DNA from: Negativicutes bacterium | Lineage (GTDB): Bacteria > Bacillota > JAAYKD01 | Reading direction: 5' to 3' | Assembly (NCBI GenBank): GCA_021372785.1 | Contig: JAJFTT010000010.1 | Location: 1 to 35,999, forward strand | Length of the DNA: 35,999 nucleotides | Position numbers and translations under genes: made by a program | Shown here: in pieces, positions 8,602 through 35,810 of the stretch | How positions within the stretch are numbered: the first letter of the stretch is position 1 | Layout: each line of letters opens with the position of its first letter | Notes under the pieces: generated by a model | What the model was told of the DNA's origin: nothing | Databases searched by the model: none | The model's input: only the letters and a program-made list of their open reading frames with translations

Positions 8602-8620
8602 TCAGCAGCAGGGAGGAGGG

Positions 8621-9598: not shown

Positions 9599-9599
9599 A

Positions 9600-10022: not shown

Positions 10023-10067
10023 TCCAGAAAAACCGGACAGACCTTTGCGCTGGGAAAGCAGGATCAT

Positions 10068-10096
10068 ACCGCCCTCGATCTTCGAGCGGCGGTTTT
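10068..10096 (+). terminator. Intrinsic terminator after ftsL
   Basis: ACCGCCCTCGA (10068-10078) pairs with TCGAGCGGCGGT (10082-10093) in an 11-bp stem with one bulged C and a TCT loop, followed by TTTT. It would separate the mraZ-rsmH-ftsL transcript from murF, which is unusual inside a dcw cluster. Confidence 0.7.
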
Positions 10097-10097
10097 G

Positions 10098-11771: not shown

Positions 11772-12723
11772 CCGTTATCTGATCGTGATGCTGATTGCCA
11801 TGGCGGCGGCGGCTGTCACCGGGCCTCTGCTGATCCCCCTGCTGCATCGTTTAAAATTCGGTCAGAGCATCCGTCAGGAAGGGCTGCAGAGTCACTATAA
11901 GAAAACCGGTACTCCCACAATGGGCGGTTTCATTATTTACCTTGGCCTGCTGGCCGGTCTGCTGTTTGCCGGTCAGTGGACCAGAACCATCGGCGTTTTG
12001 CTGCTGCTTGTGTTTGGCCATGGTCTGCTGGGGTTTGCCGATGATTATATTAAATCCGCCCGGAAAAATCCGGAGGGATTATCGGCCAGGGCAAAATTGA
12101 TCGGTCAGTTCAGCCTGGCGGCGCTTTTCTGCTGGCTGCTGGCCGGTAAGGGTTTGACGACCGAACTTGTGCTGCCCCTCCTGCACTGGCAATTGCCGCT
12201 GGGTTTTTTCTATTGGATTTTGGCGCTGCTCTATCTGGTGTTTTTCAGTAATGCCGTCAACATCATCGATGGCGTGGACGGATTATGCAGCGGTCAGACC
12301 ATGATTGCCACCTTGTTTTGCTTTTTTGTCGCGCTGTTGCAGCAGCAAACCGATTTGGCGGCTTTTTGCGCGGCTCTGATCGGCGCCTTGGCTGGTTTCT
12401 TATTGTTCAACCTGCATCCGGCGCGGATTTTTATGGGTGATACCGGTTCGCTGGGCTTAGGCGCGGCGTTGGCAGCAATGGCGCTGCTCCTGAAAGTGGA
12501 AGCCTTGATGCTCTGGGTCGGCATGGTCTTTATTATCGACATTTTTTCTACCATTATTCAGGTGCTTTACTTTAAAGCAACCAAAGGCAAACGTCTGTTT
12601 AAAATGAGCCCGATTCATCATCATTTTGAATTGTGCGGTTGGAGCGAGTGGAAAATTGTTTTTGTTTTCTGGGCTTGCGGCTTGTTTTTTACCTTGACGG
12701 GTGCGTGGCTGTTTATCGCATAG
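11764..12723 (+). CDS. mraY: Phospho-N-acetylmuramoyl-pentapeptide transferase MraY
   Basis: MraY is the integral membrane enzyme that moves phospho-MurNAc-pentapeptide to undecaprenyl phosphate and forms lipid I. The 319-residue protein has about ten hydrophobic segments and the family motifs GTPTMGG, the aspartate pair in LGFADDYIK, NAVNIIDGVDGL, FMGDTGSLGLGA and the histidine cluster SPIHHHFEL. The start at ATG 11764 overlaps the murF stop, which indicates translational coupling; a GTG at 11755 in frame is possible but would remove the GGTGA binding site. Length is typical for the Bacillota enzyme. Confidence 0.96.
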   Translation: MNNRYLIVMLIAMAAAAVTGPLLIPLLHRLKFGQSIRQEGLQSHYKKTGTPTMGGFIIYLGLLAGLLFAGQWTRTIGVLLLLVFGHGLLGFADDYIKSARKNPEGLSARAKLIGQFSLAALFCWLLAGKGLTTELVLPLLHWQLPLGFFYWILALLYLVFFSNAVNIIDGVDGLCSGQTMIATLFCFFVALLQQQTDLAAFCAALIGALAGFLLFNLHPARIFMGDTGSLGLGAALAAMALLLKVEALMLWVGMVFIIDIFSTIIQVLYFKATKGKRLFKMSPIHHHFELCGWSEWKIVFVFWACGLFFTLTGAWLFIA

Positions 12724-12735
12724 GGGGGGATTCGA

Positions 12736-14091
12736 ATGGAATTACAAGGGAAAAAGGTACTTGTCTTGGGGTTAGCCCGCAGCGGAGTGGCTTCCATCCA
12801 TGTCTTGCTCAAGCATGGCGCCGTGGTGATCGCCAACGATTCCGCCAAACCGGATAAGGTGGCAAAAGACGTAGAAGCATTGGCCGGTCTGCCGGTAGAG
12901 ATTATTTTGGAGCAGCACCCGCTGGAATTGCTCGATCAGGGGCTCGATCTGATTGTCAAAAATCCGGGGATCCCTTATGATATTCCGTTTTTACAGGCTG
13001 CCAGAGCCAAAGGGATTCCGGTGGTCAGCGAGGTGGAACTGGCCTGGCAGGTTACCAAAGCGCCGCTGGTTTGTATTACGGGTTCCAACGGCAAAACAAC
13101 CACAACCGCCTGGGTCGGTGAAATTTTGCGTCATGACAGAGCCAATGTGCATGTCGCAGGCAATATCGGTCTGCCGCTCAGCGAAGAGGTGGATGGTCTG
13201 GATGAAAAGCATATCGTAGTGGTGGAACTCTCCAGTTTTCAGCTGAATGATGTGCTGGATTTTCGTCCCAAAGTCGCCACCCTGCTCAATATCTACAACA
13301 CGCACCGTGACTGGCATCACACGGCTGAAAATTACCTGGAAGCAAAATCGCATCTTTTCCTCAACCAGACTGCGGAAGATTGGGCGATTCTCAATGCGGA
13401 AAATGCGGAAGTCATGTCGCTGCTGCCCAAAATCAAGGCGCATCCGCTGACCTTCAGCCACCTGCAGCCGCAAGAAGAAGGAGCCTGGCTGCAAAATGAT
13501 CTGCTGATGTTCCGCAGCAAAGGCGTTACGGAGGCAATTTTACCGTTAAAAGAATTGGGGATCGGTTATGCCCATAATTATCAGAATGCCATGGCGGCTG
13601 CCCTGACTGCTTACGCGGCGGGGGCATCGCCGGAGGCCATCCGCAAAGGCTTACGCAGTTTTCAAGGGGTGGCGCATCGCTTCCAAATTGTGGCCCGACT
13701 GAACGGAGTTCTCTATATCAACGATTCCAAAGCGACCAATGTGCAGGCTGCTTTGGTGGCTTTGAGTTTACCCGGCGAACCGATTATTCTGATTGCCGGC
13801 GGTTTGGACAGAGGACAGGATTTTACAGAATTTGCTCAGAGCATTCGGCAGCACTGCAAAGCGGTGATTCTCTTGGGACAAACCAAAGAGCGGATCCGGC
13901 AGGCATTGGCGGCAGAGAATTTTAGCAATGTCACGATGGTCCATGATATGGAAGAAGCGGTGGAACAGTCCCGCAGGTTAAGCGAGCCGGGCGATTGTGT
14001 CTTATTATCGCCGGCCTGCGCCAGTTGGGATATGTATCCCGACTTTGAAGTCAGAGGTCAATCGTTTATGGATGCCGTCGTCAGGAAATGA
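12736..14091 (+). CDS. murD: UDP-MurNAc-L-alanine--D-glutamate ligase MurD
   Basis: MurD adds D-glutamate to UDP-MurNAc-L-Ala in the cytoplasm. The 451-residue protein begins with a Rossmann-like domain (VLVLGLARSGVAS) and has NPGIPYD and the P-loop ITGSNGKTTTTAWVG. The central ligase motifs LSSFQLN and the HRDWH stretch follow, and the C-terminal domain carries INDSKATN and LLSPACASWDMY. Length and all motifs are normal. ATG 12736 follows TAGGGGGGATTCGA, a clear ribosome binding site, 12 bases after the mraY stop. Confidence 0.96.
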   Translation: MELQGKKVLVLGLARSGVASIHVLLKHGAVVIANDSAKPDKVAKDVEALAGLPVEIILEQHPLELLDQGLDLIVKNPGIPYDIPFLQAARAKGIPVVSEVELAWQVTKAPLVCITGSNGKTTTTAWVGEILRHDRANVHVAGNIGLPLSEEVDGLDEKHIVVVELSSFQLNDVLDFRPKVATLLNIYNTHRDWHHTAENYLEAKSHLFLNQTAEDWAILNAENAEVMSLLPKIKAHPLTFSHLQPQEEGAWLQNDLLMFRSKGVTEAILPLKELGIGYAHNYQNAMAAALTAYAAGASPEAIRKGLRSFQGVAHRFQIVARLNGVLYINDSKATNVQAALVALSLPGEPIILIAGGLDRGQDFTEFAQSIRQHCKAVILLGQTKERIRQALAAENFSNVTMVHDMEEAVEQSRRLSEPGDCVLLSPACASWDMYPDFEVRGQSFMDAVVRK

Positions 14092-14100
14092 GGTTGCACT

Positions 14101-15207
14101 GTGGCTGGATCTAAAAGGCGTTTACCGGATATCTGGTTATTTCTGACCGTCTTGATGTTAGTGGGTTTTGGCTTGATTATGGTTTACTCCTCCAGCTCGG
14201 TGACGGCGCCGCAGTTGGGTGTGGAGAGCAATTATTACGCGCTGAACCAGGTCAAATGGGCCATCATGGGATTTGCTGTCATGTTCGTTACTGCTTTGCT
14301 TCCTTTGGATTGGTTTAAAAAAGGGGCAATGCCTTTCTACATTTTTGGTTTGCTGCTCCTGGCTGCGTTGTATATTCCCGCCCTGGCCATTAACCGCAAC
14401 GGAGCAACCCGCTGGCTGAACCTGGGTTTCACCACGTTTATGCCATCCGAAGCGGCGAAAATAGCCGTTGTCGTCCTGCTGGCCAAAAAATTCAGTGAGA
14501 TACAAGGTAATTTATGCCAATTGAAAGACGTGGCTTACTGCGCCGTTTTGATTCTGATCCCATGTGCTTTCATTTTGAAGCAGCCGGATTACAGTACGAT
14601 GCTGATTGTGATCGGCACCGCGGCAATCATGATGTTCATTGCGGGCTTACCCTGGATTTATACGATTTTAGCCGGTCTGAGCGGCGGAGCAGCTTTGGTT
14701 TACCTGGCGTTTGGCGAAGAATACCGGATGGACCGAATCAAGACATTTCTCGATCCCTGGCAAGATCCGGTCGGACATGGCTGGCAGGTGATACAGTCGT
14801 TATACGCCATCGCTTCCGGCAGGCTGACCGGTTTGGGGTATGGGAAAAGCAGACAGAAATACGGTTATCTGCCGGAATCCATGAGCGATTTTATTTTTGC
14901 TATCGTTGCGGAAGAAACGGGTTTGCTTGGCGCCGGCGCCCTGATTCTGCTCTTCATTGTTTTTCTTTGGCGCGGTTATCTCATATCCCGCAAAACAGAC
15001 GATATTTTCGCCTCTTTTTTGGCGATCGGTTTTACCTCCATGATCTGTCTGCAGGCAATTGTCAATATGGCGGTGGTTACTTCCTCCATTCCTGCAACCG
15101 GGATCACGCTGCCGTTTATCAGTGCGGGCGGTTCTTCTCTGGTCATGTCGCTGATTGCCGTGGGGTTGATACTGAATGCCTCCCGCGCCAGACCAAGTGC
15201 TTCCTAG
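14101..15207 (+). CDS. ftsW: FtsW/SpoVE-type lipid II polymerase (SEDS glycosyltransferase)
   Basis: This 368-residue SEDS-family membrane protein polymerises glycan strands at the septum together with a class B PBP. It has about ten membrane segments, an early YSSSS motif, RWLNLGFTTFMPSEAAKIAVV, and the large loop with YGYLPESMSDFIFAIVAEETG. The conserved end is PATGITLPFISAGGSSL. The start is GTG 14101 with GAGGTTG just upstream, 9 bases after murD. Its position between murD and murG is the usual one for FtsW or SpoVE; sequence alone does not separate division FtsW from sporulation SpoVE. The partner transpeptidase is not encoded in this cluster. Confidence 0.92.
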   Translation: MAGSKRRLPDIWLFLTVLMLVGFGLIMVYSSSSVTAPQLGVESNYYALNQVKWAIMGFAVMFVTALLPLDWFKKGAMPFYIFGLLLLAALYIPALAINRNGATRWLNLGFTTFMPSEAAKIAVVVLLAKKFSEIQGNLCQLKDVAYCAVLILIPCAFILKQPDYSTMLIVIGTAAIMMFIAGLPWIYTILAGLSGGAALVYLAFGEEYRMDRIKTFLDPWQDPVGHGWQVIQSLYAIASGRLTGLGYGKSRQKYGYLPESMSDFIFAIVAEETGLLGAGALILLFIVFLWRGYLISRKTDDIFASFLAIGFTSMICLQAIVNMAVVTSSIPATGITLPFISAGGSSLVMSLIAVGLILNASRARPSAS

Positions 15208-15228
15208 TGCCGGAAAGGATGTGTTGAC

Positions 15229-16338
15229 ATGCGACTGGTTGTGACCGGCGGTGGTACCGGCGGGCATATCAATCCGGCCATTGCTTTAATCAAGGAATTG
15301 CAGGCGAGACCGGAACCCCTGCAGGTGTTATATCTGGGTACGCAAAGAGGAATGGAATCCGAGTTGGTCATGCAGGAAGGGATCCCATTTTCCGTGATCT
15401 CTTCCCGCGGTTTTCAACGTAAAATCTCTGTGGATACCCTCAAAACAATTGTCACAGCGGCCAACGGTTTTTTTCAGGCGCATGCTTACCTGAAGGAATT
15501 CCGACCGGACGTGGCGGTCGGTACCGGCGGCTATGTTGCCGGACCCGTGATTCTGCAGGCCGCACTGATGGGAATTCCCACTTTAATCCATGAACAGAAC
15601 GCGCTGCCCAGCCTGACCAACCGGCTGCTGGCCAGATTTGTGACCTCCATCGCACTCTCATACCCTGAGTCAAGCCGCTATTTTCCCGACAATAAGCCGC
15701 AGTATGTCATCGGTAATCCGGTCAGACCGGAAATTATGGCAACCGGCAGAGCGGAGGCAATCGAGCGTCTGGCGCTCAATCCAGAACTGAAAACTTTGCT
15801 GGTGGTTGGCGGCAGCCGCGGAGCGGAACCGATCAATGAAGCCGTTTTGGCGGTGCTGCCCGATTATTTATGCCAGAGCGGTCAGCAGGTTATTTTTGCC
15901 ACGGGCAAAGCGCATTTCGCAAAGATTGCGGCAAAACTGGACGCGCTCGGCTACCTGCGGCATAAAAACCTGCATCTGCTGCCTTATTTGTTCGATATGG
16001 CAGCCGGCTTGCAGGCGGCCGATCTGATCATCTCCCGTTCCGGCGGTATGATTGCCGAAATCAATCTGGTCGGTATTCCCGCCATCTATATCCCGTCCCC
16101 CCATGTGGCGGATAATCACCAGGAATATAATGCCAGGGCGATTGAAAGCCAAGGCGCCGGCGTGATGATTCGGGAAAAGGATCTGACCCCAACGCTGCTG
16201 CTGCAGACAATCAACCGGATTTTGTTCGACGAAGAGGAATCGCAGCGGATGCGTCAGGCGGCCCTGGCGATGGCCAAACCGGATGCAACCAGGCAATTTG
16301 CCGACTTAGCCTGTCAAATCGCTAAAAAACAGCAATAA
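15229..16338 (+). CDS. murG: UDP-GlcNAc--lipid I N-acetylglucosaminyltransferase MurG
   Basis: MurG is a GT-B glycosyltransferase on the inner face of the membrane that adds GlcNAc to lipid I to make lipid II. The 369-residue protein has the N-terminal glycine-rich loop TGGGTGGHINPAIA, GTGGYVAGP, PTLIHEQNALP, VVGGSRGAEPINEAV and the C-terminal nucleotide-binding motif SRSGGMIAEI. Length is typical. The ATG 15229 follows GGAAAGGATGTGTTGAC, an acceptable binding site, 21 bases after ftsW. It is followed by about 110 non-coding bases before murC, the longest gap in this part of the cluster. Confidence 0.96.
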   Translation: MRLVVTGGGTGGHINPAIALIKELQARPEPLQVLYLGTQRGMESELVMQEGIPFSVISSRGFQRKISVDTLKTIVTAANGFFQAHAYLKEFRPDVAVGTGGYVAGPVILQAALMGIPTLIHEQNALPSLTNRLLARFVTSIALSYPESSRYFPDNKPQYVIGNPVRPEIMATGRAEAIERLALNPELKTLLVVGGSRGAEPINEAVLAVLPDYLCQSGQQVIFATGKAHFAKIAAKLDALGYLRHKNLHLLPYLFDMAAGLQAADLIISRSGGMIAEINLVGIPAIYIPSPHVADNHQEYNARAIESQGAGVMIREKDLTPTLLLQTINRILFDEEESQRMRQAALAMAKPDATRQFADLACQIAKKQQ

Positions 16339-16450
16339 CAGAAAAAACCGATCGCGGCCAACCAACGCGCACCTGCCTGGCAAAAGGGGAGTTTGCGATC
16401 GATCGGATTGATGGAAAACAACCTGCGCTGTGAAGAGGAAGGTGTTTTAT

Positions 16451-17875
16451 ATGGAAAATTTGGGTCAATATCAAAAAGTCCATTTTGTCGCCATCGGCGG
16501 GATCGGTATGAGTGCTCTGGCGCGTATTTTATTGGGTCGCGGCGTGGCAGTCTCCGGTTCGGATGAAAGCGAATCTCATATCACAGAAGATTTGCGCCGC
16601 CTGGGCGCCAAGGTTTACTGCGGTCATCAAGCGGAACAATTGGGCGATGCGGAGCTGGTTGTGGTTTCATCGGCCATTAAATATGAAAATGCGGAAGTGG
16701 AAGAAGCCGGGAGGCGGGGCATCCCGATTTGGCACCGTTCCAAACTGCTGAATGTTCTGATGGCGGAAAAAGAAAGCATCACGGTGGCCGGCGCGCATGG
16801 GAAAACGACCACCAGCTCGATGCTGACGACGGTCCTGCTCAGTGCCGGCCAAGAGCCCGCCGCAATCCTGGGCGGCGAATTGGCAGAGATCAATGGCAAT
16901 GCCTGTTGGGGGAAAGGACGCTATCTGGTGGCCGAAGTGGATGAAAGCGACGGCAGTTTCCTCAACCTGAACTACAAATACGCCGTGATCACCAACATTG
17001 AAGCCGATCATTTGGACTATTATCCGTCGCTCTGCCATATTGAACAGGCTTTCGTAACGTATTTGAATCAATTGCCGGCCGACGGCTTTGCCATGCTGGG
17101 AATCGATTCCGACAGCGTACGCAAAATCATGCCGCAACTGACTTGCTCCTATCTGAGTTATGGTTTTGCCGCCGATGCGCGGCTGCAGGCAACCAAGGTC
17201 GTTTTGCAGAATGGTCACAGTCAATTTCAGGTTGTGCTGGATCATGCTGTTTTAGGCGAGATTGAGCTGCAGGTCCCCGGCAGACACAATGTGCAGAATG
17301 CTCTGGCTGTTGTGGGAATCTGTCTGCATCTGGGCTTGGGCATGGCCGAGATTCGGCAGGGCCTGGCTGACTTTTGCGGTGCCAAACGGCGTTTTGAAAA
17401 AATCGGCAGTATAGGGGAAATCACCGTCATCGAAGATTATTCCCATCACCCGACGGAAATCAAAGCAGCCCTGGCGGCGGCAAGGACCTATCAGCCCAAG
17501 CGTCTCGTGGTTGTTTTTCAGCCGCATCTTTATTCCCGCACCAGAAATCTCAGAAATGAGTTCGGCAAAGCCTTTTTTGATGCCGACCTGGTCATTCTGA
17601 CCGATATCTTTGCCTCAAGAGAAAAAAGACCGGAACCCGGCGTCGATGGTCAAATGCTGGTCGAAGCAGTGCGCGAATGGGATCCGCAAAGACAAGTCAT
17701 CTATATCGCGGATAAAAAGCAATTGCCGCAGCGGTTGGCACCGCTTTTACGGCCCGGTGATATGGTGATTTTTATGGGAGCCGGTGATATCAATCAATTT
17801 GGGATCCCCTTGCTGCAGGAATTGCAAAATTCACTTTCTGCCGGCGGAGAAAATGCAAAAGGAGAAAGCAAATGA
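16451..17875 (+). CDS. murC: UDP-N-acetylmuramate--L-alanine ligase MurC
   Basis: MurC starts the stem peptide by adding L-alanine to UDP-MurNAc. The 474-residue protein has VHFVAIGGIGMSALARIL at the N-terminus, the P-loop VAGAHGKTTTSSML, and VAEVDESDGSFLNL followed by ITNIEADHLDYY. The C-terminal stretch VIEDYSHHPTEIKAAL completes the set. All are standard MurC motifs. I choose ATG 16451 with AGGAAGG (16436-16442) 8 bases upstream rather than the GTG at 16430, which lies before that binding site. The stop codon overlaps the ddl start. murB, often fused to or next to murC, is missing. Confidence 0.96.
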   Translation: MENLGQYQKVHFVAIGGIGMSALARILLGRGVAVSGSDESESHITEDLRRLGAKVYCGHQAEQLGDAELVVVSSAIKYENAEVEEAGRRGIPIWHRSKLLNVLMAEKESITVAGAHGKTTTSSMLTTVLLSAGQEPAAILGGELAEINGNACWGKGRYLVAEVDESDGSFLNLNYKYAVITNIEADHLDYYPSLCHIEQAFVTYLNQLPADGFAMLGIDSDSVRKIMPQLTCSYLSYGFAADARLQATKVVLQNGHSQFQVVLDHAVLGEIELQVPGRHNVQNALAVVGICLHLGLGMAEIRQGLADFCGAKRRFEKIGSIGEITVIEDYSHHPTEIKAALAAARTYQPKRLVVVFQPHLYSRTRNLRNEFGKAFFDADLVILTDIFASREKRPEPGVDGQMLVEAVREWDPQRQVIYIADKKQLPQRLAPLLRPGDMVIFMGAGDINQFGIPLLQELQNSLSAGGENAKGESK

Positions 17876-18801
17876 TGAAAAATGTTGCGGTTTTAGTCGG
17901 CAGATCATCGGAAAGAGAAATTTCCTTAAAAACGGCTGCGGGTATTATCGCAGCGCTGCAGTCGCGAGGTTATCGCGCTTATCAAATGGAAATTGACGCG
18001 CAGTTACCCGGCGCACTGCAGGCTATGCCGGTCGACGTTGCTTTTATCGCTTCGCACGGCAAATTCGGAGAAGACGGTACTGTCCAGGGTTTATTGGAAA
18101 TTATGGGGATCCCTTATGTCGGTTCCGGCGTTTTAGCCAGCGCCTTGGCGATGAATAAAATCATGTCGAAGAAAATCTTTGAATTTGCACAAATCAGAAC
18201 GCCAAAATGGCTGCCTGTTGATCAATATACGGATTTGCAACACATTCGGGAACAAGTGGAGATTGTTTTCAGCGGCGTGGAGCATTTGATTGTGAAACCC
18301 GCTTCCCAGGGTTCCTCAATTGGCTTGACCTTGGTGAAAGAACGGCAGGCTCTGCTGCCGGCTCTGCGTTTGGCTTTGCAGTATGACACGGAAGTCTTGA
18401 TTGAAGAAGCGATCAGCGGCACGGAACTGACCGTGGCCATCTGGGGTAATCGCGAACTAACCGTTTTACCTTGTATTGAAATAGTTTCTGCCCATGAGTT
18501 TTATGATTATGAAGCAAAATACGCGCTTAATATGAGCAAGCATATAATTCCCGCCCGCATCGCGCCGGCAGTGGAAGCGGAGGCCAAAGCGCTGGCGGTG
18601 CGGGCGCACCGTGCCTTAGGCTGCCGCGGTATTTCACGGTCGGATTTCTTTGCGGACAACGAAGACCGCTGCTGGCTGCTGGAGGTCAATACACTGCCCG
18701 GCATGACGGGTACCAGTCTGGTGCCGGATGCAGCCAAGGCAATTGGCTATTCCTACGCGGATTTGGTGGAGAAATTGATCCAGTTGGCTTTGGAAGCATA
18801 A
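17872..18801 (+). CDS. ddl: D-alanine--D-alanine ligase
   Basis: Ddl joins two D-alanines with ATP to make the dipeptide used by MurF. The 309-residue ATP-grasp protein has the N-terminal VAVLVGRSSEREISLKTA and SHGKFGEDGTVQGLLE, VKPASQGSSIGLTLV and the C-terminal metal and substrate motif LLEVNTLPGMTGTSL. One glycine of the usual GGxSSERE motif is arginine here (LVGRSSERE). The gene starts at ATG 17872, overlapping the murC stop by four bases (ATGA), with a second in-frame ATG at 17875. A ddl gene between murC and ftsQ is familiar from Proteobacteria and some Bacillota. Confidence 0.95.
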   Translation: MMKNVAVLVGRSSEREISLKTAAGIIAALQSRGYRAYQMEIDAQLPGALQAMPVDVAFIASHGKFGEDGTVQGLLEIMGIPYVGSGVLASALAMNKIMSKKIFEFAQIRTPKWLPVDQYTDLQHIREQVEIVFSGVEHLIVKPASQGSSIGLTLVKERQALLPALRLALQYDTEVLIEEAISGTELTVAIWGNRELTVLPCIEIVSAHEFYDYEAKYALNMSKHIIPARIAPAVEAEAKALAVRAHRALGCRGISRSDFFADNEDRCWLLEVNTLPGMTGTSLVPDAAKAIGYSYADLVEKLIQLALEA

Positions 18802-18841
18802 GATCATCGCATCGTTGCAGACGAGGGAAGGGGGCAGCGCA

Positions 18842-19564
18842 TTGAAACGGCTCAAACCGCCGCAGATTGGTTGGAAAATTCGATTCCTTTTGCTGCTGCC
18901 TTTGCTTTTGCTGCTTTCTCTTTTGCTGCTGCCCATTTTCCGTTTGAGCGAATTAACGATTATCGGCAATGTCAAAGCAGATATCAACGAGATTTACTAT
19001 GTGTTGGGGGAACCGGTCGGCAAGCCTTTGCTTCTCTTGCGTTTGCAGCCGCTGCAAGCGAAACTTGTCAAAACGCCTTGGATTGCCCGGGCGCAGATTC
19101 GCTATCTGTTACCCAATAAAATGCAGATCACGCTCACCGAACGTCAAATCATGGCTTATATTCCTTATCATGGCAATTACCTGGCGATATCCGATGAGGG
19201 AATTGCTTTGGAAATTGCAACCCAATTACCGGCGAACGAACAGGCGATCCTGCTGACCGGCATCGAGCTGCCTTTTCTGGGTGTCGGTGACCGCATACCG
19301 GCTGAGCCGGATATCAACCGTGTCAAGCTGCTGATCGGGCAGATGAGCGATACATTTAAAAAAATGGTGGCGGAAATCAAGCTGACGGATGCCCGCTATC
19401 TCACCATTGTTTCGGTGGATAATTATCGGATACAAGTACAAGGCAACGAAGTCAGCAGCGAACAATTGGATAATCTGCGCACCATTATTCTCCTGCTGCG
19501 TGAGAAAAATCAATTGGGTACGATCATTCTGCAGGAAGGAAAACCGGTCTTTATTCCGGACTAA
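18842..19564 (+). CDS. ftsQ: Cell division protein FtsQ/DivIB
   Basis: This 240-residue bitopic protein scaffolds FtsL and the other divisome proteins. It has a short basic N-terminus and one strongly hydrophobic membrane segment of leucines (FLLLLPLLLLLSLLLLPIF, about residues 13-31). A POTRA domain follows (LSELTIIGNVKADINEIYYVLGE) and then the FtsQ domain (NKMQITLTERQIMAYI, and YLAISDEGIAL). The start is TTG 18842; AAGGGGG at 18828-18834 lies 7 bases upstream, and an in-frame TTG at 18815 has no such site. FtsQ normally precedes ftsA, but here ftsZ follows directly. Confidence 0.9.
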   Translation: MKRLKPPQIGWKIRFLLLLPLLLLLSLLLLPIFRLSELTIIGNVKADINEIYYVLGEPVGKPLLLLRLQPLQAKLVKTPWIARAQIRYLLPNKMQITLTERQIMAYIPYHGNYLAISDEGIALEIATQLPANEQAILLTGIELPFLGVGDRIPAEPDINRVKLLIGQMSDTFKKMVAEIKLTDARYLTIVSVDNYRIQVQGNEVSSEQLDNLRTIILLLREKNQLGTIILQEGKPVFIPD

Positions 19565-19590
19565 ATTCTACCAAAGCAGGTTGAAAAAAG

Positions 19591-19607
19591 AGCAGCCGAA
19601 CGCTGCT
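19591..19607 (+). terminator. Small hairpin after ftsQ
   Basis: AGCAGC (19591-19596) and GCTGCT (19602-19607) form a 6-bp stem with a five-base loop, 27 bases after ftsQ. The tail TTGCTTG is only moderately T-rich. A second weak hairpin, GGCTT/AAGCC (19705-19719), is followed by GGTTTTTC. Either could reduce read-through into ftsZ, but neither is strong. Confidence 0.35.
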
Positions 19608-19747
19608 TTGCTTGCCGTCAGCAAAAACGGCGGCTGTTTCTACAGGATATTCTTTCGGAGAACAGGGAGGAATCCCCCGTCAGCAGGACGAATTTTTAGG
19701 CAAAGGCTTTGCGTAAGCCGGTTTTTCAATACGAACAGAGAAAAATC

Positions 19748-19776
19748 CTGTCAGGCGAGCGATAAAAAGGTAAAAT
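19748..19776 (+). promoter_or_regulatory. Candidate ftsZ promoter
   Basis: CTGTCA (19748-19753) and TAAAAT (19771-19776) are 17 bases apart in the 248-base gap before ftsZ. The -35 box is only a partial match. The long gap supports a separate promoter for ftsZ, as in many bacteria. Confidence 0.35.
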
Positions 19777-19812
19777 CATCGGCAGCAAGAATTATGAAGA
19801 GGAGTGGAGCCC

Positions 19813-20901
19813 GTGTTGGAAGTTCAATCTGATATGCAGGAAATCACAAAAATTAAGGTCATTGGCGTAGGCGGCGGCGGCAGCAATGCGGTGGACCGCA
19901 TGATCGCGGCCGGCTTAAAAGGGGTAGAATTTATTGCTGTGAACACAGACGGCGCCGTTTTAGAACACTCTTTGGCGGATCAAAAGCTGCAGATTGGCAT
20001 GAAATTAACACGCGGTCAGGGGGCGGGCGGCAATCCGGACATCGGTTTGAAAGCGGCCGAGGAGAGCCGGGATGAACTGGCTCGCGTCCTGAAAGGCGCT
20101 GATATGGTCTTTGTCACGGCCGGCATGGGCGGCGGTACCGGCACGGGCGCAGCCGCCGTTGTGGCGGATGTGGCCAAAGAATTGGGGGCGCTGACCATCT
20201 CCGTCGTGACCAAACCTTTTGCTTTTGAAGGGCGCCGGCGCGCCGCGCAGGCCGATCTTGGCATCACAAGACTGCGGGAAAAAGTGGATGCTCTGATCAC
20301 CATACCGAATGACCGCCTGATGCAGGTAATCGATAAAAAGACAACCCTGCTTGACGCCTTTAAAATGGTGGATGAAATCCTGCGTCAGGGTGTGCAGGGG
20401 ATTTCCGACTTAATTGTGGTTCCCGGTATTGTCAACCTGGACTTCGCCGATGTCAAATCGATTATGGTTGATTCCGGTACTGCCATCATGGGCATTGGCT
20501 ACGGTCAGGGTGAAGGCAGAGCGGTCCAGGCTGCCAAAATGGCGATTTCCAGCCCCTTACTGGAAACATCGATTGAAGGAGCCCGCGGCGTCTTATTGAA
20601 CATTGCCGGCGGACCGGATTTAACCTTATATGAAACAACGGAAGCTGCCGATATCATTACTCAGGCGGTCGATCCGGATGCCCAGATCATCTGGGGGACT
20701 TCGATTGACGAAAAATTGAAAGACCAGGTGCGTCTGGCCGTCGTAGCCACCGGTTTTGACCAGAAACAGCGGTCTCCCTATTTTGATCCGAACAAGAAGC
20801 CGGAGATGCGGGACGAGCGGACCATCTCCATGGCAATGAAACAAAACCAGGCCAAATCCGGCGCCGATTTTTCCGTGCCGCCGTTCCTGCAAAAAAAGTA
20901 A
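19813..20901 (+). CDS. ftsZ: Cell division GTPase FtsZ
   Basis: FtsZ is the tubulin-like GTPase that forms the division ring. The protein of about 362 residues has [15 protein letters not shown], the tubulin signature [13 protein letters not shown], and the T7 loop [12 protein letters not shown] very short C-terminal linker follows, ending in [11 protein letters not shown], which resembles the conserved tail that binds FtsA, SepF and ZapD-like partners. I choose GTG 19813 because GAGGAG (19799-19804) lies 8 bases before it; GTG 19804 overlaps that site. ftsA is missing upstream, so membrane attachment of FtsZ probably uses SepF or an FtsA encoded elsewhere. Confidence 0.97.
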
Positions 20902-23181: not shown

Positions 23182-23814
23182 ATGACGCAGGAGGAAGCGA
23201 CCGCACTCGCCCGGCTTGTCTTGGCAGCTCAGCGCAAAGACGAAGCAGCCTTTGAGCAATTGGTTCATCTCTACGAAAAAAAAGTCTATCGATTGGCTTA
23301 TCGCATGGCTGACAATCCCGATGACGCCCTGGAAATGACGCAGGAGATTTTCCTGAAACTCTACCGTTCCCTCAACAGTTTTAAAGGGGAATCCACTTTC
23401 AATACCTGGTTTTATCGCCTGGCTGTCAACGCCTGCCTCGATTTTTTGCGAAAACGACAGCGGGTGGAGAAGGTCGCGTCCTTTAGTTTGAATCAAAAGG
23501 ACATTTTTGAAAAGGAGACGGAGCCGAGCGATGCCGCGCCGCTGCCGCAGGAGCTTTTGGAACGCGCCGATCTGCAGTTTTTAGTGCAGGAAGCCTTAAA
23601 ATTGCTCAATCCGGATCAGAAAATCATCCTGATCCTCTGCGATATCGAAAACAGAAGTTACGAAGAAATTGCAGAGCTGCTGCAATGCAAATTAGGCACG
23701 GTCAAATCCCGTATTTCCCGCGCCCGTTGCGCTCTGCGGCAGATCATCATCGACCAAGCGGAACTTTTTCAGGGTTATCTGCGTCATACTGATCAGAAAG
23801 GAGGTTCCGAATGA
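23182..23814 (+). CDS. ECF-type RNA polymerase sigma factor
   Basis: This 210-residue sigma-70 family protein of the extracytoplasmic function group has region 2 at about residues 20-92 (FEQLVHLYEKKVYRLAYRMA, ALEMTQEIFLKLYRSL, TFNTWFYRLAVNACLDFLRK). Region 4 lies at about 135-190 (LLNPDQKIILILCDIENRSY, then EEIAELLQCKLGTVKSRISRA), with no region 3 between, as expected. It directs RNA polymerase to envelope-stress promoters in related systems (SigW-like). The ATG 23182 has GAGAGGAGG upstream. Its stop overlaps the start of the anti-sigma gene, and the two are co-transcribed from the promoter at 22835-22863. An autoregulated promoter typical of ECF factors (AAC / CGTA boxes) was not obvious. 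Confidence 0.93.
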   Translation: MTQEEATALARLVLAAQRKDEAAFEQLVHLYEKKVYRLAYRMADNPDDALEMTQEIFLKLYRSLNSFKGESTFNTWFYRLAVNACLDFLRKRQRVEKVASFSLNQKDIFEKETEPSDAAPLPQELLERADLQFLVQEALKLLNPDQKIILILCDIENRSYEEIAELLQCKLGTVKSRISRARCALRQIIIDQAELFQGYLRHTDQKGGSE

Positions 23815-25043
23815 TGAATTGTCAGGATTGCAGAACAGAATTGTCTGCTGTTATAGCCCTGCCGGAAGAGCAATGGTCCCCGGAACTCAGACAGCACCTG
23901 GCGGAATGCGCCGCGTGCCGTCAGGAATTTCTTTGGCTGCAGAAAGTTCAGGCTGCAATCAGAGCGGATCATCCGGCGGAACTTCCCCCAAATCTGCATC
24001 GCAGTATCATGGCGGCCATCGCTGGCGAAAAATTGACGGCGGCTGCCGCGGCAAAGCAAACAGCTGACAGCGCCAAAACGAGAGCGGTCCCGGTAAAAAG
24101 AGCAAAACAGCATCGGCGGTTTTGGACTGCCGCCGCGATCGCGGCAATCGCCGCGGTTGCGATGCTGATCCAGACTTCCGGACTTCTGGTTCGGCCGGAG
24201 CAGACGGTTGCAGAGGCTGGTATCACGGATACGGCAAAAGAAAAAGGTACGGCTGCGGACACAAGCGCAGGCACGGAACCGGTGGAAAAAACAGGGCAGG
24301 GGATCAATCGACCGGACCAGCCGGGAGCCGCTCTGACTGTGCCGATGCTACCGGAAGTGAGTGAACCGCCGACCGGCAGCGGGACCACAGACAGCGTGAC
24401 CACAGACAGCGTGGCCACAGACAGCGTGGCTACAGACAGCGTGACCACAGACAGCGGGACCATAGACAGCGTGACCATAGACAGCGGGACCATAGGCAGC
24501 AAGACCATCGCTGCGGGCGAAGCGGCAGGCAGCCAAATACCGGCTGAACCCCCCCGGGCGAACCCCAGCGATCCGCTTCTGGCAAGCCCGGCACCGCTGC
24601 CGCCGGAAGCAAACGCTGCCGGTCCGGACAGCACGGTAGAATCGACCGCACTCTCCGGCATCGCGGCGGTAACGCCGGCCGATCCGCTGCAGGCTGAACC
24701 GCGCAGCGTGCAAATCCAAATAGACCAGGCGCTGCAGGAACTGATTTTAACGGCGGTAAAGGACAGCGCCTTGCCTTTTGAACTCATAAAGGCTACCGCA
24801 GCAGGATCTCTGACAGAATTAAAAATAGAAGGAACCGGGGAGGAACTCGTCGAACTCTTGCAGGGAATCGTGATTCCTGCCGGTTCTACGGTTTTGTTAC
24901 CTGCCTTCAGTTTACAGCCGACGCAAGATTCGGAGAAACCAGCCGACCAAAGCGAGGTCATTGTCTATCCGATCGGTTCTCGCTGCGTAACCTTAGAGGC
25001 AGGAACGGTCTATCAATTGAGTTTTGAGTTTCAAGTTAAATAA
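23811..25043 (+). CDS. Membrane anti-sigma factor with zinc-binding domain
   Basis: This 410-residue protein starts with a zinc-binding anti-sigma domain: C4/C7 and H29-x3-C33-x2-C36 (QHLAECAACRQ), which holds the ECF sigma factor at the membrane. A membrane segment of Ala, Ile and Val lies near residues 105-127. The outside part begins with a low-complexity region that contains eight five-residue repeats of the TTDSV type (191-230). A folded-looking domain of about 110 residues ends the protein (SVQIQIDQALQELILTAVKD to the C-terminus), which I do not recognise. The start ATGATG overlaps the sigma stop, with AAAGGAGG upstream. Release by regulated proteolysis is the usual mode for this class. 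An intrinsic terminator follows. Confidence 0.85.
   Translation: MMNCQDCRTELSAVIALPEEQWSPELRQHLAECAACRQEFLWLQKVQAAIRADHPAELPPNLHRSIMAAIAGEKLTAAAAAKQTADSAKTRAVPVKRAKQHRRFWTAAAIAAIAAVAMLIQTSGLLVRPEQTVAEAGITDTAKEKGTAADTSAGTEPVEKTGQGINRPDQPGAALTVPMLPEVSEPPTGSGTTDSVTTDSVATDSVATDSVTTDSGTIDSVTIDSGTIGSKTIAAGEAAGSQIPAEPPRANPSDPLLASPAPLPPEANAAGPDSTVESTALSGIAAVTPADPLQAEPRSVQIQIDQALQELILTAVKDSALPFELIKATAAGSLTELKIEGTGEELVELLQGIVIPAGSTVLLPAFSLQPTQDSEKPADQSEVIVYPIGSRCVTLEAGTVYQLSFEFQVK
24381..24500 (+). repeat. In-frame 15-bp tandem repeat in the anti-sigma gene
   Basis: Eight consecutive 15-base units of the type GTGACCACAGACAGC fill 24381-24500, with a ninth decayed unit after them. Each unit encodes five residues (TTDSV, ATDSV, TIDSG and similar). 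Because 15 is a multiple of three, gain or loss of units would keep the frame and only change the length of the extracytoplasmic stalk. Confidence 0.9.
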
Positions 25044-30282: not shown

Positions 30283-31662
30283 ATGAAAAAATTTATCGGC
30301 AATAAAGCCTTTTATCAGATGGTCCTGCTGTTGGTCGTTCCCATGATCATTCAGCAGGGGATTACCAGTATCGTCAATTTATTGGACAATGTCATGGTGG
30401 GCCGGCTCGGAACGGAAGCGATTTCCGCTGTGGCGATCTGCAGCCAGTTTTTCTTCGTCTTAAACGTTACCATTTTCGGTGGACTTTCCGGCGCCTCTAT
30501 TTTCTCAGCTCAGTTCTTTGGCCGCAAGGATTATGAAGGCGTCATGCATACTTTTCGCTACAAAATTCTCTTTGGTATCGCGATTTGTTTTGCGGCGATA
30601 TTGGCCTTCAACATTTGGGATGTTCAATTGATTCAACTTTTCCTGAATGAAACGGCGGGAGACGCGGCGGATCTGGCGCAAACCATGCTTTTAGCCAGGC
30701 AATATCTCAAAATTATGCTTTGGGGTATCGTGCCGTTTATGATTTCGCAGTGTTTTTCTTCCACCTTACGGGAAAGCGGCAATACCGTCATTGCCATGAC
30801 CGGCAGCATTCTGGCAGTTCTGACCAATCTGGTTGGCAATTATCTGCTCATTTTCGGCAGTTTCGGCTTCCCGCGCCTGGGCGTGGCAGGGGCTGCCATT
30901 GCCACCGTGATTTCGCGTTTGGTAGAAGCGGGCTTTATTGTTGGGGTGACCTGGCTGCAAAGAGACAATTTCTATTTTGTGCGCAAAGCCTTCCAAAGCG
31001 CCTATATCCCGGCGAAGATCCTCAAAGGCATTGCCATCAAAGGCTCTCCCTTACTGGCCAACGAATTGATCTGGTCGATCGCCACCGCCTCGCTCACCGC
31101 CAACTATGCCTTCCGCGGTATCACAGTGGTAGCCGCCCTGAATATAGCATCCACGATTTCTCAATTATTCGCCATCTTTTTTATGTCGATGGGCAATGCG
31201 GTTGGTGTTTTGGTTGGGCAGCAGCTGGGTGCCGGTGATTTCGCCAAAGCCAAAGACACCGATCATAAACTGATTTTTCTCAATGTCTGCACCTCCGTGG
31301 TTCTGGGCTGTCTCTTGGCTTTGTTTTCTTCCTACATTCCGTTGATTTACAATACGGAAGCTGCGGTTCGTCAGATGGCATCCGGCTTCCTGATTGTGGC
31401 TGCTATGGCCTTCCCGCTGCACTCCTTTAACCACAGCGTTTATTTTACGCTGCGTACCGGCGGCAAAACGATCATTACCTTTTTCTTTGACAGTGTCTTC
31501 ACCTGTGTCGTCAGCGTTCCCCTGGCCTTTTTCCTCTCGCGCTATACCAGGCTGCCGATTGTGACGGTCTATCTGATTGTAAACATGGCCGATGGTATCA
31601 AATCGGTCATCGGTTATATCATGCTGAGAACCGACAGCTGGGTAAAAAGTATCATTGCTTAG
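30283..31662 (+). CDS. MATE family efflux transporter
   Basis: This 459-residue membrane protein belongs to the MATE multidrug and toxic compound extrusion family, Na+- or H+-driven exporters with 12 membrane helices in two halves. It begins KAFYQMVLLLVVPMIIQQG, followed by SIVNLLDNVMVGRLGTEAIS, the standard first-helix motif, and has VLTNLVGNYLLIFGSFGFPRLGVAGAA in the first half. The second half has the equivalent QQLGAGDFAKAKDTDHKL region. Length is normal. The substrate is unknown. The ribosome binding site (GTAGGTAG) is weak. Upstream DNA is mobile-element debris and downstream DNA is the palindrome array, so the gene stands alone. Confidence 0.92.
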   Translation: MKKFIGNKAFYQMVLLLVVPMIIQQGITSIVNLLDNVMVGRLGTEAISAVAICSQFFFVLNVTIFGGLSGASIFSAQFFGRKDYEGVMHTFRYKILFGIAICFAAILAFNIWDVQLIQLFLNETAGDAADLAQTMLLARQYLKIMLWGIVPFMISQCFSSTLRESGNTVIAMTGSILAVLTNLVGNYLLIFGSFGFPRLGVAGAAIATVISRLVEAGFIVGVTWLQRDNFYFVRKAFQSAYIPAKILKGIAIKGSPLLANELIWSIATASLTANYAFRGITVVAALNIASTISQLFAIFFMSMGNAVGVLVGQQLGAGDFAKAKDTDHKLIFLNVCTSVVLGCLLALFSSYIPLIYNTEAAVRQMASGFLIVAAMAFPLHSFNHSVYFTLRTGGKTIITFFFDSVFTCVVSVPLAFFLSRYTRLPIVTVYLIVNMADGIKSVIGYIMLRTDSWVKSIIA

Positions 31663-31796
31663 AAGAAAAGATGTTGCCCCAGCGCTCGGCGTTGAAAACA
31701 ACGAATGCCCCAACGCAGCTCCATTGTTTTGCCGGTGTTGATTTACCCATACACAAAATGTTATTGCGGTGTGAATTCAACCTACATACAAGGTAG

Positions 31797-33097
31797 GGAA
31801 CGGTCTTGACCGTTCCGCGTACCCAGTCCCATGCGTTCCGCGTACTCCGTTTCATGCGTAACCACATTATTATTGCGGTGTTTTTTTACCCATACACAAG
31901 GTAGGGAACGGTCTTGACCGTTCCGCGTTCCGCGTACCAGCGTTCCGCGTACCCCGTACCTGTGCATCTCTATTGTTATTGTGGTGTTTTTTTACCCACA
32001 CGCAAGGTAGGGAACGGTCTTGACCGTTCCGCGTTCCCCGTACCTGTGCATCTCTATTGTTATTGTGGTGTTTTTTTACCCATACGCAAGGTGCGGAACG
32101 GTCAAGACCGTTCCCTACATTTGCCCATTGTGTTTTGCACTATGCGATAATTATTCCATTGCTTGGCGGAGTAAATGCAATTGATTTCGGTGTTCCGCAT
32201 ACCCCGTTTCATGCGTAACCACATTATTATTGCGGTGTTTTTTTACCCATACACAAGGTAGGGAACGGTCTTGACCGTTCCGCGTACCCCGTTCCAGCGT
32301 TCCGCGTTCCCCGTACCTGTGCATCTCTATTGTTATTGTGGTGTTTTTTTACCCATACACAAGGTAGGGAACGGTCTTGACCGTTCCGCGTTCCCGGCGT
32401 AGCTTCATCGTTATTTTGGCGTGAATTCAACCTACACGCAAGGTAGGGAACGGTCTTGACCGTTCCGCGTTCCCCGTTCCAGCGTTCCGCATACCCCGTT
32501 TCATGCGTAACCACATTATTATTGCGGTGTTGATTTCACATATACACAAGGTAGGGAACGGTCTTGACCGTTCCGCGTTCCATGTGCAGCTTCATCGTTA
32601 TTTTGGTGTGAATTCAACCTACACGCAAGGTGCGGAACGGTCAAGACCGTTCCCTACATTTGCCCATGGTGTTTTGCGCTATGCGATAATTATTCCATCG
32701 CCCATCGTGTTTTGCGCTATGCGATAATTATTCCATTGCCCATGGTGTTTTGCGCTATGCGATAATTATTCCATCGCCCATCGTGTTTTGCGCTATGCGA
32801 TAATTATTCCATTGCCCATCGTGTTTTGCGTTATGCGATAATTATTCCATTGCCCATCGTGTTTTGCGTTATGCGATAATTATTCCATCGCTTGGCGGCG
32901 TAAATGCAATTGATTTCGGTGTTCCGCGTACCCCGTTTCATGCGTAACCACATTATCATTGCGGTGTTGATTTCACCTACACACAAGGTAGGGAACGGTC
33001 TTGACCGTTCCGCGTACCCCGTTTCATGCGTAACCACATTATCATTGCGGTGTTGATTTCACCTACACACAAGGCAGGGAACGGTCAAGACCGTTCC
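31797..33097. repeat. Mosaic array with eleven 20-bp palindromes
   Basis: The perfect dyad GGAACGGTC-NN-GACCGTTCC occurs at 31797-31816, 31905-31924, 32011-32030, 32095-32114, 32262-32281, 32368-32387, 32447-32466, 32555-32574, 32634-32653, 32992-33011 and 33078-33097. Eight copies have TT at the centre; the fourth, ninth and eleventh have AA. Copies are joined by spacers from a few recurring sequence families (for example one with CGTTTCATGCGTAACCACAT, one with ACCTGTGCATCTCTATTGTT, one with GCTTCATCGTTATTTTGG). Starts are 79-86 or 106-108 bases apart except for two longer steps (167 and 358). An RNA copy would fold into a hairpin with a CUUG or CAAG loop. No U-runs follow, so these are not terminators. 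Short open frames inside the array only reflect the repeat. Bases 31663-31796 hold no gene. Confidence 0.95.
32662..32889 (+). repeat. Six tandem 38-bp repeats
   Basis: Six consecutive 38-base units (32662-32699, 32700-32737, 32738-32775, 32776-32813, 32814-32851, 32852-32889) differ at only three or four positions. Each includes GTGTTTTGCGCTATGCGATA and then ATTATTCCAT. One isolated, slightly diverged unit lies at 32123-32160. In both places the units start nine bases after an AA-centred palindrome and are followed by the same sequence beginning GCTTGGCGG. Confidence 0.95.
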
Positions 33098-33175: not shown

Positions 33176-33205
33176 TTGACAAAGCCTCCAACGTCAAGGT
33201 ATTAT
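33176..33205 (+). promoter_or_regulatory. Consensus promoter of the V-type ATPase operon
   Basis: TTGACA (33176-33181) is a perfect -35 box and TATTAT (33200-33205) is one base from the -10 consensus; the spacer is 18 bases. Predicted transcription starts near 33212, leaving a leader of about 290 bases before the first gene. Confidence 0.75.
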
Positions 33206-33502: not shown

Positions 33503-33826
33503 ATGAAAGAAATACTCCGTCAGGTGAAAGATGCCGAGCAGGAAGCAGCTGCCACGGTGGAAAAAGCCAAAATTGAGGCTGAAGAACTGATCTTTCACGC
33601 CAAAACAGAATCAGCGCTCAAACTGGAAAAAACCATCGAGGAAGCGCGCGCCGAAGCAGAGCGTTTGTTATCTGAACGCAAGACTCTCGTAGAAGAGAAA
33701 TTACAGTCGATCAGTCTGGAAAATCAGGAAACAAGACGTCAGATTGTCTCCGGTGCGGAGCAGCATATTCCCGAAGCAATTGCATTGATTAAGGAAAGGA
33801 TGGTGAAGCGCGTTGGCAATCGCTGA
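33503..33826 (+). CDS. V-type ATP synthase subunit H (peripheral stalk, G/F-like)
   Basis: This 107-residue protein is almost entirely alpha-helical and charged, with heptad-like runs (VKDAEQEAAATVEKAKIEAE, then KTIEEARAEAERLLSERKTLVEEKL). That is the pattern of the small peripheral stalk subunit called H in archaea, G in eukaryotes and NtpF in Enterococcus. It pairs with subunit E to connect the membrane and catalytic parts. The identity rests on coiled-coil character and on its place directly before subunit I. The ATG follows AAAGGTGGTGAGG. It overlaps the next gene by 14 bases. Confidence 0.8.
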   Translation: MKEILRQVKDAEQEAAATVEKAKIEAEELIFHAKTESALKLEKTIEEARAEAERLLSERKTLVEEKLQSISLENQETRRQIVSGAEQHIPEAIALIKERMVKRVGNR

Positions 33827-35810
33827 GATGAAAAAAGTCCGCCTCGTCGCTCACCAGACCTGGCAAAAAAAGCTGATTACTTCCTTGCAGGAGTGGGGAT
33901 CTGTCCAATTAGTGGATGTCAAGCAGCAGCTGAAAGACAGTGAATTCGCTGTGGAAATCGATTCCGGCGATCTCGATCTCGATCTCAGCGCCGCTGCCGA
34001 AGCGCAGGCAAGAATCAAATCGGCGTTGGAATATCTCAAACGGTTCAACAAAAAATCCGAAGGTCTGATCGTCAGCTTTATGAATCTGAAAAAGCAGATC
34101 AGCAAGACAGAGATGGCTGATATTATTCAGAATTACGACGGTTTGGCAGTCGCTGACCGCTTCAGTCAGTATGAAAAACGTCTGGCTGAAATCGCCAACC
34201 AATTGAGCCGCTTGGCGGCTGAACGCAGTCAGCTGACGCCCTGGCAAAAACTTGATCTGGCTCCGGCTCAGCTGAATCAACTGCAGGAAACCGAAGCAGT
34301 GCTGGGCAGTATTCAAAATGCGCAGTATCAGGCTCTGCTCAGCAAATTATCGGCAGCGACCCAGCAGCAGGTACATGTTGAGCTGATTGAGCAAAATAAC
34401 AAAGATTGTCTGATGGTAGTGCTGGCAATTCGCCAGGATGAACGAGTGAAACAGGCACTGCGTGAAACGAATTTTTCAGCGGTCGTACTGCCGCGGCCTG
34501 AAAAAACACCAAGTGATGCTCTCATTGAAATCGAAAACGAAATACAGTTGCTGCAAAAAGAGCGCGAGGAAATCGTGGCGACCAGTACCGCAATGCTGGC
34601 GGACCAGCTCAAACTGGAAGCGTTAAGCGATTATTACGGACAGAGAGTACAGAAATATCAGGTGAAAAAGCTGATCGTTTCCACCGAGACCGTTATTTTA
34701 CTGGAAGGATGGCTGGAAGAAAAACAACGCGACGCCTTCCTGCAGAAGATGCAGGAGCACTTTCCTGAGGTGGTCGTTTTGATCACCGAACCGGAAGAAA
34801 GCGACAACCCGCCGATCGTTCTCAAGAATAACGCTGCCGCCACACCTTTCGAGTTCGTCATGAATATGTATGGCTGGCCAAATTATCGCGAGCAGGATCC
34901 CACCCCGGTGTTGGCGCCCTTCTTCGCCTTGTTTTTTGCCATTGCTTTGGGCGATGCCGGCTATGGTTTGTTATTATTGATTTTAGGCTTCTATTTCATG
35001 AAAAAATACGATCTCGATGCCGGCGGCAAGAAATTTTTCCGCTTATTTATGACTTGCGGCGCCTTAACCATGGTTGTTGGTTTGTGTCTGAACGGCTTTT
35101 TCGGTAATTTATTGGATTTGCTGCCGTCACTTGCCTTCCTGCGCCGTATCAAAGATGCAGTCGTACTGATCGATCCCATGTCCAATCCCATCGGCATGAT
35201 GATTCTCTGCGTTGCTTTGGGTGTTGTGCAGGTCTGGACCGGTTATCTGATGAAATCAATCGGCGCCTGGCGCCGGGGCGATAAAATTGGCGCCCTGCTC
35301 GATGGCGGCCCCTGGATGCTCTGGATCGCTGCTTTAACCTTCTTTATTCTCACCGCTACCGTGCCTGCCTTCAGCGGCCTGGCTGCCGTTGGCAAATACG
35401 CAGCCATCGCCGGCGCTTTGGGCATTGTGCTGACCCAGGGCCGCGGTTCCAGCAATATTTTTGCCAAACTGGGCGGCGGTTTATACGCGCTCTATAATAC
35501 CATCGGGCCGTTGAGCGATACCTTATCCTATACCCGCTTGCTGGCTTTGGGCTTATCGGGCGGCGTCATTGCCATGGTGGTCAATACTTTTGCTGTCATG
35601 CTGAAAGACATCCCCTTTGTTGGCTGGCTGCTGATGCTGGCCCTTTTAGTGGGCGGTCACCTCTTCAATATCGTACTTTCCCTGCTTGGTTGTTTCGTCC
35701 ATTCTGCCCGTTTACAGTATGTGGAATTCTTTACCAAGTTCTTCGAAGGCGGCGGAACCCCGTTCCGACCTTTCAGACGGGAAACCAAATATACCGTCAT
35801 CAAAGAGTAA
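33813..35810 (+). CDS. ntpI: V-type ATP synthase subunit I
   Basis: This 665-residue subunit is the membrane stator of the V-type ATPase; it forms the ion half-channels beside the K ring. The N-terminal half is cytoplasmic with long coiled-coil helices (MKKVRLVAHQTWQKKLITSL; later EIENEIQLLQKEREEIV). The C-terminal half, from about residue 350, has seven or eight membrane segments, starting at YREQDPTPVLAPFFALFFAIALGDAGYG, a family hallmark, and including PLSDTLSYTRLLALGLSGG. I choose TTG 33813 because MAIAEMKKV matches the usual N-terminus and GGTGA lies 7 bases upstream; ATG 33828 is possible. Whether the enzyme moves Na+ or H+ cannot be read from this subunit alone. Confidence 0.94.
   Translation: MAIAEMKKVRLVAHQTWQKKLITSLQEWGSVQLVDVKQQLKDSEFAVEIDSGDLDLDLSAAAEAQARIKSALEYLKRFNKKSEGLIVSFMNLKKQISKTEMADIIQNYDGLAVADRFSQYEKRLAEIANQLSRLAAERSQLTPWQKLDLAPAQLNQLQETEAVLGSIQNAQYQALLSKLSAATQQQVHVELIEQNNKDCLMVVLAIRQDERVKQALRETNFSAVVLPRPEKTPSDALIEIENEIQLLQKEREEIVATSTAMLADQLKLEALSDYYGQRVQKYQVKKLIVSTETVILLEGWLEEKQRDAFLQKMQEHFPEVVVLITEPEESDNPPIVLKNNAAATPFEFVMNMYGWPNYREQDPTPVLAPFFALFFAIALGDAGYGLLLLILGFYFMKKYDLDAGGKKFFRLFMTCGALTMVVGLCLNGFFGNLLDLLPSLAFLRRIKDAVVLIDPMSNPIGMMILCVALGVVQVWTGYLMKSIGAWRRGDKIGALLDGGPWMLWIAALTFFILTATVPAFSGLAAVGKYAAIAGALGIVLTQGRGSSNIFAKLGGGLYALYNTIGPLSDTLSYTRLLALGLSGGVIAMVVNTFAVMLKDIPFVGWLLMLALLVGGHLFNIVLSLLGCFVHSARLQYVEFFTKFFEGGGTPFRPFRRETKYTVIKE

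Follow-up and report, generated by a model that had tools for sequence, protein, structure and literature searches.

An intergenic array of GTAG-tagged REP elements and its likely RAYT transposase in an uncultured, probably clostridial member of the Bacillota

Repeats of the GTAG-tagged REP superfamily carry the tetranucleotide GTAG at one end of a 6-13 bp stem that is closed by a loop of 2-3 nt (often TY). They are intergenic, clustered and present in both orientations, and have been described in Proteobacteria, Cyanobacteria, Chloroflexi and the PVC group (Di Nocera et al. 2013, PMC3733652). Firmicutes and Clostridia go unmentioned both in the text of that study and in Nunvar et al. 2010; RepRanger (PMC12306157), applying its own definition, includes REP counts for some Bacillota. 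In Escherichia coli, REPs of mixed orientation together with spacer modules form BIMEs, and the RAYT gene encoding TnpAREP lies between its own REPs, an arrangement called a REPtron. A bulge in the stem is required in E. coli (PMC8266576). The REPtron of Stenotrophomonas maltophilia (group 3 RAYT, REP-Sm) has a short perfect palindrome of 8 bp with a 3-nt loop. Cleavage of REP-Sm requires GTAG, the orientation of the loop and a perfect stem; S. maltophilia TnpAREP barely cleaves GCAG and is severely impaired by a reversed loop (PMC8266576). Inverted pairs of REPs have been described as REPINs (Bertels and Rainey 2011, PMC3116915).

In this study, we analyse a repeat array in a stretch of 35,999 nucleotides of bacterial DNA (the window) and the related repeats in the rest of the genome. 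The arrangement is of a known kind, a REP/BIME array plus its RAYT. We read the array, with a probability of about 0.88, as a BIME-like cluster of GTAG REPs that was spread by the RAYT P0001, a domesticated transposase encoded elsewhere in the genome, and enlarged locally by segmental duplication. Features are collected in Table 1.

Table 1. Coordinates of the REP copies, repeat modules and neighbouring genes in the window, and of the transposase gene on contig C18
Feature	Position	Strand	Remark
REP copy 1	31793..31816	+	GTAG + 9-bp palindrome + TT loop
REP copy 2	31901..31924	+	
REP copy 3	32007..32030	+	
REP copy 4	32095..32118	-	inverted
REP copy 5	32258..32281	+	
REP copy 6	32364..32387	+	
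REP copy 7	32443..32466	+	
REP copy 8	32551..32574	+	
REP copy 9	32634..32657	-	inverted
REP copy 10	32988..33011	+	
REP copy 11	33074..33097	+	intact dyad, tag GCAG, loop AA; predicted poor or dead substrate
204-bp spacer-REP-spacer-REP module, copy one	31835..32038	+	repeat family D4; 96% identity to 32192-32395
204-bp module, copy two	32192..32395	+	repeat family D4
124-bp spacer module, copy one	32121..32244	+	repeat family D7; 93% identity to 32850-32973
124-bp spacer module, copy two	32850..32973	+	repeat family D7
38-bp tandem repeat, 6.1 copies	32662..32891	+	within the longest inter-REP spacer; absent from the initial annotation
MatE-family transporter gene	30283..31662	+	upstream of the array
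Best sigma-70-like promoter between array and downstream genes	33176..33205	+	11/12 matches, consensus match only
V-type ATPase subunit I gene	33813..35810	+	downstream of the array
P0001, HUH/Y1 tyrosine transposase, 158 aa	C18:4489-4965	minus	Pfam Y1 match

The initial annotation had reported eleven exact copies of a dyad, GGAACGGTC-NN-GACCGTTCC, in 1.3 kb of DNA devoid of genes, and all eleven were found in the intergenic DNA from 31797 to 33097 (expectation in dinucleotide shuffles, 0). The array starts 131 bp past the MatE stop, the next ORF begins at 33503, ahead of the V-ATPase subunit I gene, and array and neighbour genes share one strand. From start to start the dyads are 108, 106, 84, 167, 106, 79, 108, 79, 358 and 86 bp apart. 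The two classes of distance proposed initially, 79-86 and 106-108, thus hold for eight of the ten; the remaining two, 167 and 358, are the gaps directly after the inverted REP copies. The order of orientations, +++-++++-++, is mostly direct and not alternating, with eight direct copies, two inverted ones (32095, 32634) and one (dyad at 33078) with a decayed tag. The spacers were said to be drawn from a few recurring families; this is borne out by the duplicated 204-bp and 124-bp modules, which also support the suggested BIME-like recombination or duplication within the array. A tract resembling a heptamer repeat, (CCGTNCC)n, 3' of several window REPs was set aside as local because its lag-7 autocorrelation genome-wide (0.297) is barely above that of the 5' side (0.279). 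Elsewhere in the window, a 15-bp in-frame minisatellite of 8.3 copies (24377-24500) encodes TTDSV-like pentapeptides in a 410-aa protein (23811-25043).

A position so soon after the MatE stop, on the strand of both neighbours, would suit RNA elements, i.e. 3' UTR hairpins that terminate transcription or stabilise mRNA. This reading is highly improbable, as no U-run follows the hairpins, no terminator-like site lies within the array, and the array extends over 1.3 kb with both orientations present; the hairpins may still influence mRNA as a secondary effect. An Rfam search of the window returned 0 matches.

The repeated element itself was initially taken to be the 20-bp palindrome. The dyad is indeed exact, but the true unit is longer and reads GTAG-GGAACGGTC-TT-GACCGTTCC-GC, 24 bp with the tag plus a conserved GC at the 3' side, and it is directional, since the tag stands on one side alone. 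A search of the whole genome (2.1 Mb, 74 contigs), as the initial annotation had proposed, yielded 55 exact dyads, so that the window is not their single occurrence; the backwards control pattern yielded 0. Within 3 mismatches, about 72 tagged copies in about 19 clusters are present in the whole genome, and a looser scan of the copy-bearing contig stretches, to which the detailed REP analysis was applied, gave 75 places in 19 clusters. Copies occur on 11 contigs, and one decayed copy on a twelfth. Of 71 well-paired copies, 66 have GTAG at the foot of the hairpin. The loop is TT in 65 of these 66 (the remaining one has AT), which links the tag to the loop. One copy (C25:440) bears GTAG at both feet. 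Folded as single-stranded DNA, the element has an energy of -8.4 kcal/mol (z -3.9). Stem changes in copies within 3 mismatches are paired in 14 cases versus 4 unpaired, the paired ones at three positions (T-A at 5, G-C at 4, A-T at 6); as changes are mostly matched on both arms, pairing has been kept. Ten T-A copies may share one origin, and the claim that can safely be made from these sequences is therefore limited to at least three independent compensatory changes.

Copies inside and outside genes were also counted. None of 71 lies inside an ORF of at least 200 aa, although such ORFs make up 76% of the DNA examined; the copies represent about 18 clusters, and those sharing a cluster are not independent. 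Twenty copies share bases with short ORFs (100-160 aa), which for the most part seem to be chance frames formed by the array's own sequence; one copy reaches into the final bases of a 410-aa ORF. The element is thus a many-copy intergenic hairpin within the 20-40 bp range, with GTAG at one foot, as in the GTAG REP superfamily, from whose described members it differs in stem and host. Mixed orientation and recurring spacer motifs are those of a BIME, with copies mostly direct. Inverted pairs resembling REPINs are found in this genome on C6, C18, C25, C62 and C73. In the window, in contrast, copies are mostly direct and 79-108 bp apart, so the main unit there is not an inverted pair. Unlike the E. 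coli REP, the window stem is perfect; it resembles REP-Sm in being a short perfect palindrome, with another stem and loop.

A perfect 20-bp dyad, lying between genes and ahead of a promoter-like site that begins after the array end, would also suit a dimeric protein. The dyad might then be a regulator's operator array or a nucleoid- or gyrase-binding site, repeated through cis-regulatory selection; REPs of other bacteria bind several host proteins (PMC2817692). We consider this origin quite unlikely. The GTAG tag and the TT loop are strictly oriented, and a symmetric dimer needs neither. Moreover, the paired stem changes preserve pairing and not sequence, copies are located at unrelated loci and around a RAYT gene, and the stem varies between species along with the RAYT clade. 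Recombination-site and protein-binding roles of the dyad, both raised initially, are possible as secondary roles of a GTAG REP.

Comparison of clusters reveals two levels of spread. Between clusters, core identity is 95%, as compared to 32% for the 5' and 31% for the 3' flank (40-base flanks); within clusters, flank identity is 52% (5') and 45% (3'). As the core is conserved between loci and the flanks are not, the core disperses and the spacers duplicate locally. The dispersing unit is sharply bounded, at about 24-26 bp, and after landing it multiplies locally along with its surroundings, which explains the spacer families in varying order noticed initially. Segmental duplication or slippage alone, making a passive repeat family without any transposase, would be in keeping with the 204-bp and 124-bp modules and the 38-bp tandem repeat inside the array. 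It is very unlikely as the whole account, because the core is near-identical over about 19 clusters with unrelated flanks, and plain duplication would have brought the flanks along. Such duplication accounts for how the array grew and to this extent belongs to the preferred reading, a REP cluster spread by a RAYT. No conserved cleavage dinucleotide was established in the REP flanks.

The assembly consists of 74 contigs with REP clusters at several contig ends, and the end of C18 (L020 14540-14755) and the start of C73 (L114 1-216), both bearing REPs, share about 94% identity. REP clusters probably broke the assembly there, and the copy number is therefore a minimum. That the array as such is an assembly artefact, as these ends might suggest, is extremely improbable: spacer variants within it differ among themselves, copies are spread over the contigs as described, and the same arrangement is seen around RAYT relatives in independent assemblies. 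The exact number of copies in the array is uncertain. The exact dyad was found in none of 100 relatives, and the search for the V-ATPase I neighbourhood in the three nearest genomes gave no useful recovery.

The initial annotation had stated that no transposase is encoded in the window. This is correct for the window; the genome, however, has P0001 among other copies of the repeat on contig C18. Searching the genome with Pfam Y1 returned four matches, P0001 among them. REPs lie on both sides of its gene, at C18 4301 and 4377 and, beyond the gene, at 5063, 5160 and 5302. A RAYT gene between its own REPs constitutes a REPtron, as in E. coli, and REPs are also found around relatives of P0001. Against the NCBIfam model REP_Tyr_transpos (NF047646) P0001 scores 69.4 bits, the curated cut-off being 80. 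A search of the PDB with P0001 as single sequence gave no match; a family profile was needed. With a profile of 39 relatives, the best match is E. coli TnpAREP (4er8, 1.3e-11), IS200-type transposases being far weaker. The HUH motif and the single catalytic tyrosine are present in P0001, with H73, H75, Y141 and N145 invariant in relatives. In the profile alignment to 4er8, the HUH motif and the catalytic TnpAREP residues Y115 and N119 are in register with the P0001 family, and so are the GTAG-recognition residues W94, Q95, E100, H101 and R104, which correspond to W120, Q121, D126, H127 and R130 of P0001 (roles of the TnpAREP residues: PMC6006769). Recognition residues, catalytic residues and HUH motif are invariant or nearly so among the relatives, and P0001 thus shares these residues with E. 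coli TnpAREP. D instead of E100 occurs in RAYT subclasses 2.5 and 2.7 (PMC6006769) and sets P0001 apart from the S. maltophilia enzyme. The predicted structure has the Y1 fold (mean pLDDT 88.8). Foldseek ranks IS200-type transposases and TnpAREP together for this model, so that fold alone cannot separate a RAYT from IS200. An IS200/IS605 element, whose transposase gene multiplies in one piece with the hairpin ends that bound it, does not fit: P0001 is single-copy, versus about 72 REPs dispersed without the gene.

A second, longer RAYT-like gene (L022 4300-5800; C36 at about 147 kb) reaches 77.8 bits to REP_Tyr_transpos. On its flanks lie a repeat of another type, TGTGCCAAGGGGACGGGGGTGTTGGCACA-like, and a single decayed window-type REP.

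Relatives of P0001 were collected at 79 loci in named genomes, many of them Clostridia, and also Aminicenantes, Cloacimonadota, Desantisbacteria, Parcubacteria and others. Within 1 kb of a RAYT relative, the density of GTAG-tagged palindromes is 7 times that found further away (67 in 148 kb versus 19 in 299 kb). By a strict criterion, a tagged palindrome is adjacent in 30 of the 79 loci and absent in 49. Stems near RAYT relatives differ from the window stem and belong mostly to a GGAAC and a GGGCG class, the window dyad being of the GGAAC class. Stem class changes 2 times on the RAYT tree, versus 7.3-8.0 in shuffles (none of 500 gave so low a number), and this holds without near-copies. P0001 groups with GGAAC-class relatives (support 93/89). 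Palindromes of the form GTAGGGAAC are dispersed in 9 of 9 tested genomes with GGAAC-class RAYTs (2 to 82 pattern matches) and occur in 1 of 5 genomes with GGGCG-class RAYTs; the backwards control pattern gave 0.

Among 399 genomes of the phylum, 10 contain the GGAAC class when it is searched as a pattern with unconstrained interior; the listed interiors are palindromic, as judged by eye, in 9 of these 10. One of the ten (G261) carries the window stem with a TTT loop, beside an inverted copy sharing the same T-A change. P0001-like RAYTs are present in 4 of 10 genomes with GGAAC-class REPs versus 1 of 40 without (50 genomes, p 0.004), a co-occurrence at genome level that is suggestive, not tight. 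The lone exception, G240, has a P0001-like RAYT with GGGCG-class REPs beside it. At 1e-6, no P0001-like RAYT was found in G018, G168 and G346, though the REP class is present; therefore either REP class and RAYT are not strictly paired or other RAYTs are at work. Palindromes of the form GTAGGGGCG...CGCCC are plentiful in certain other genomes of the phylum, with matches in 14 of 150 (up to 41 in one); they flank RAYTs in L129, L092 and L109, with which locus L138 is grouped.

Among the roles suggested initially, that of a substrate for a REP-associated transposase fits the genome-wide copies, the GTAG tag, the mixed orientation, the flanking Y1 gene, its recognition residues and the co-segregation of stem and clade. 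Cleavage, transposition, their timing and any host benefit belong to what we infer. In single-stranded DNA, presumably the lagging-strand template, a REP would fold into a hairpin whose 5' foot carries GTAG. By analogy to TnpAREP of E. coli and S. maltophilia, P0001 probably recognises tag and hairpin, nicks adjacent to them and joins strands. Strand joining would disperse the 24-26 bp REP, or REP pairs, to intergenic sites. One copy would thus have landed between the MatE and V-ATPase genes and multiplied along with the DNA on either side. Unequal recombination, replication slippage or RAYT strand transfer could underlie this local segmental duplication, which would yield the mosaic of recurring spacers. 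The last window copy is predicted to be a poor substrate because of its GCAG tag and AA loop, by analogy to S. maltophilia TnpAREP.

The host is probably an uncultured clostridial member of the Bacillota, because the RsmH encoded in the window is closest to that of an Oscillospiraceae MAG (53%; best match beyond its own order and family among the named genomes tested). The rsmH gene is part of a dcw (division and cell-wall) gene cluster at 8558-20901 that encodes RsmH, a MurD-like ligase, FtsW, a MurG-like transferase, a MurC-like ligase and FtsZ. A literature search with the letters of the dyad retrieved no paper on the window repeat. Judged against the open literature, the occurrence of GTAG REPs in Clostridia and in several candidate phyla may be a new finding.

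These results explain a striking repeat array and tie it to its likely transposase, P0001. We see an even chance that GTAG REP/RAYT pairs form a large and mostly undescribed group in Clostridia, Aminicenantes, Cloacimonadota, Desantisbacteria and Parcubacteria, where the lower stem (GGAAC or GGGCG) is set by the RAYT clade. If it is, stem specificity would be readable from the RAYT sequence. Naturally varied REP/RAYT pairs are hereby supplied for a group without description in the open literature, and the covarying stem subfamilies, together with the link between stem class and clade, make the choice of REPs by RAYTs directly testable.
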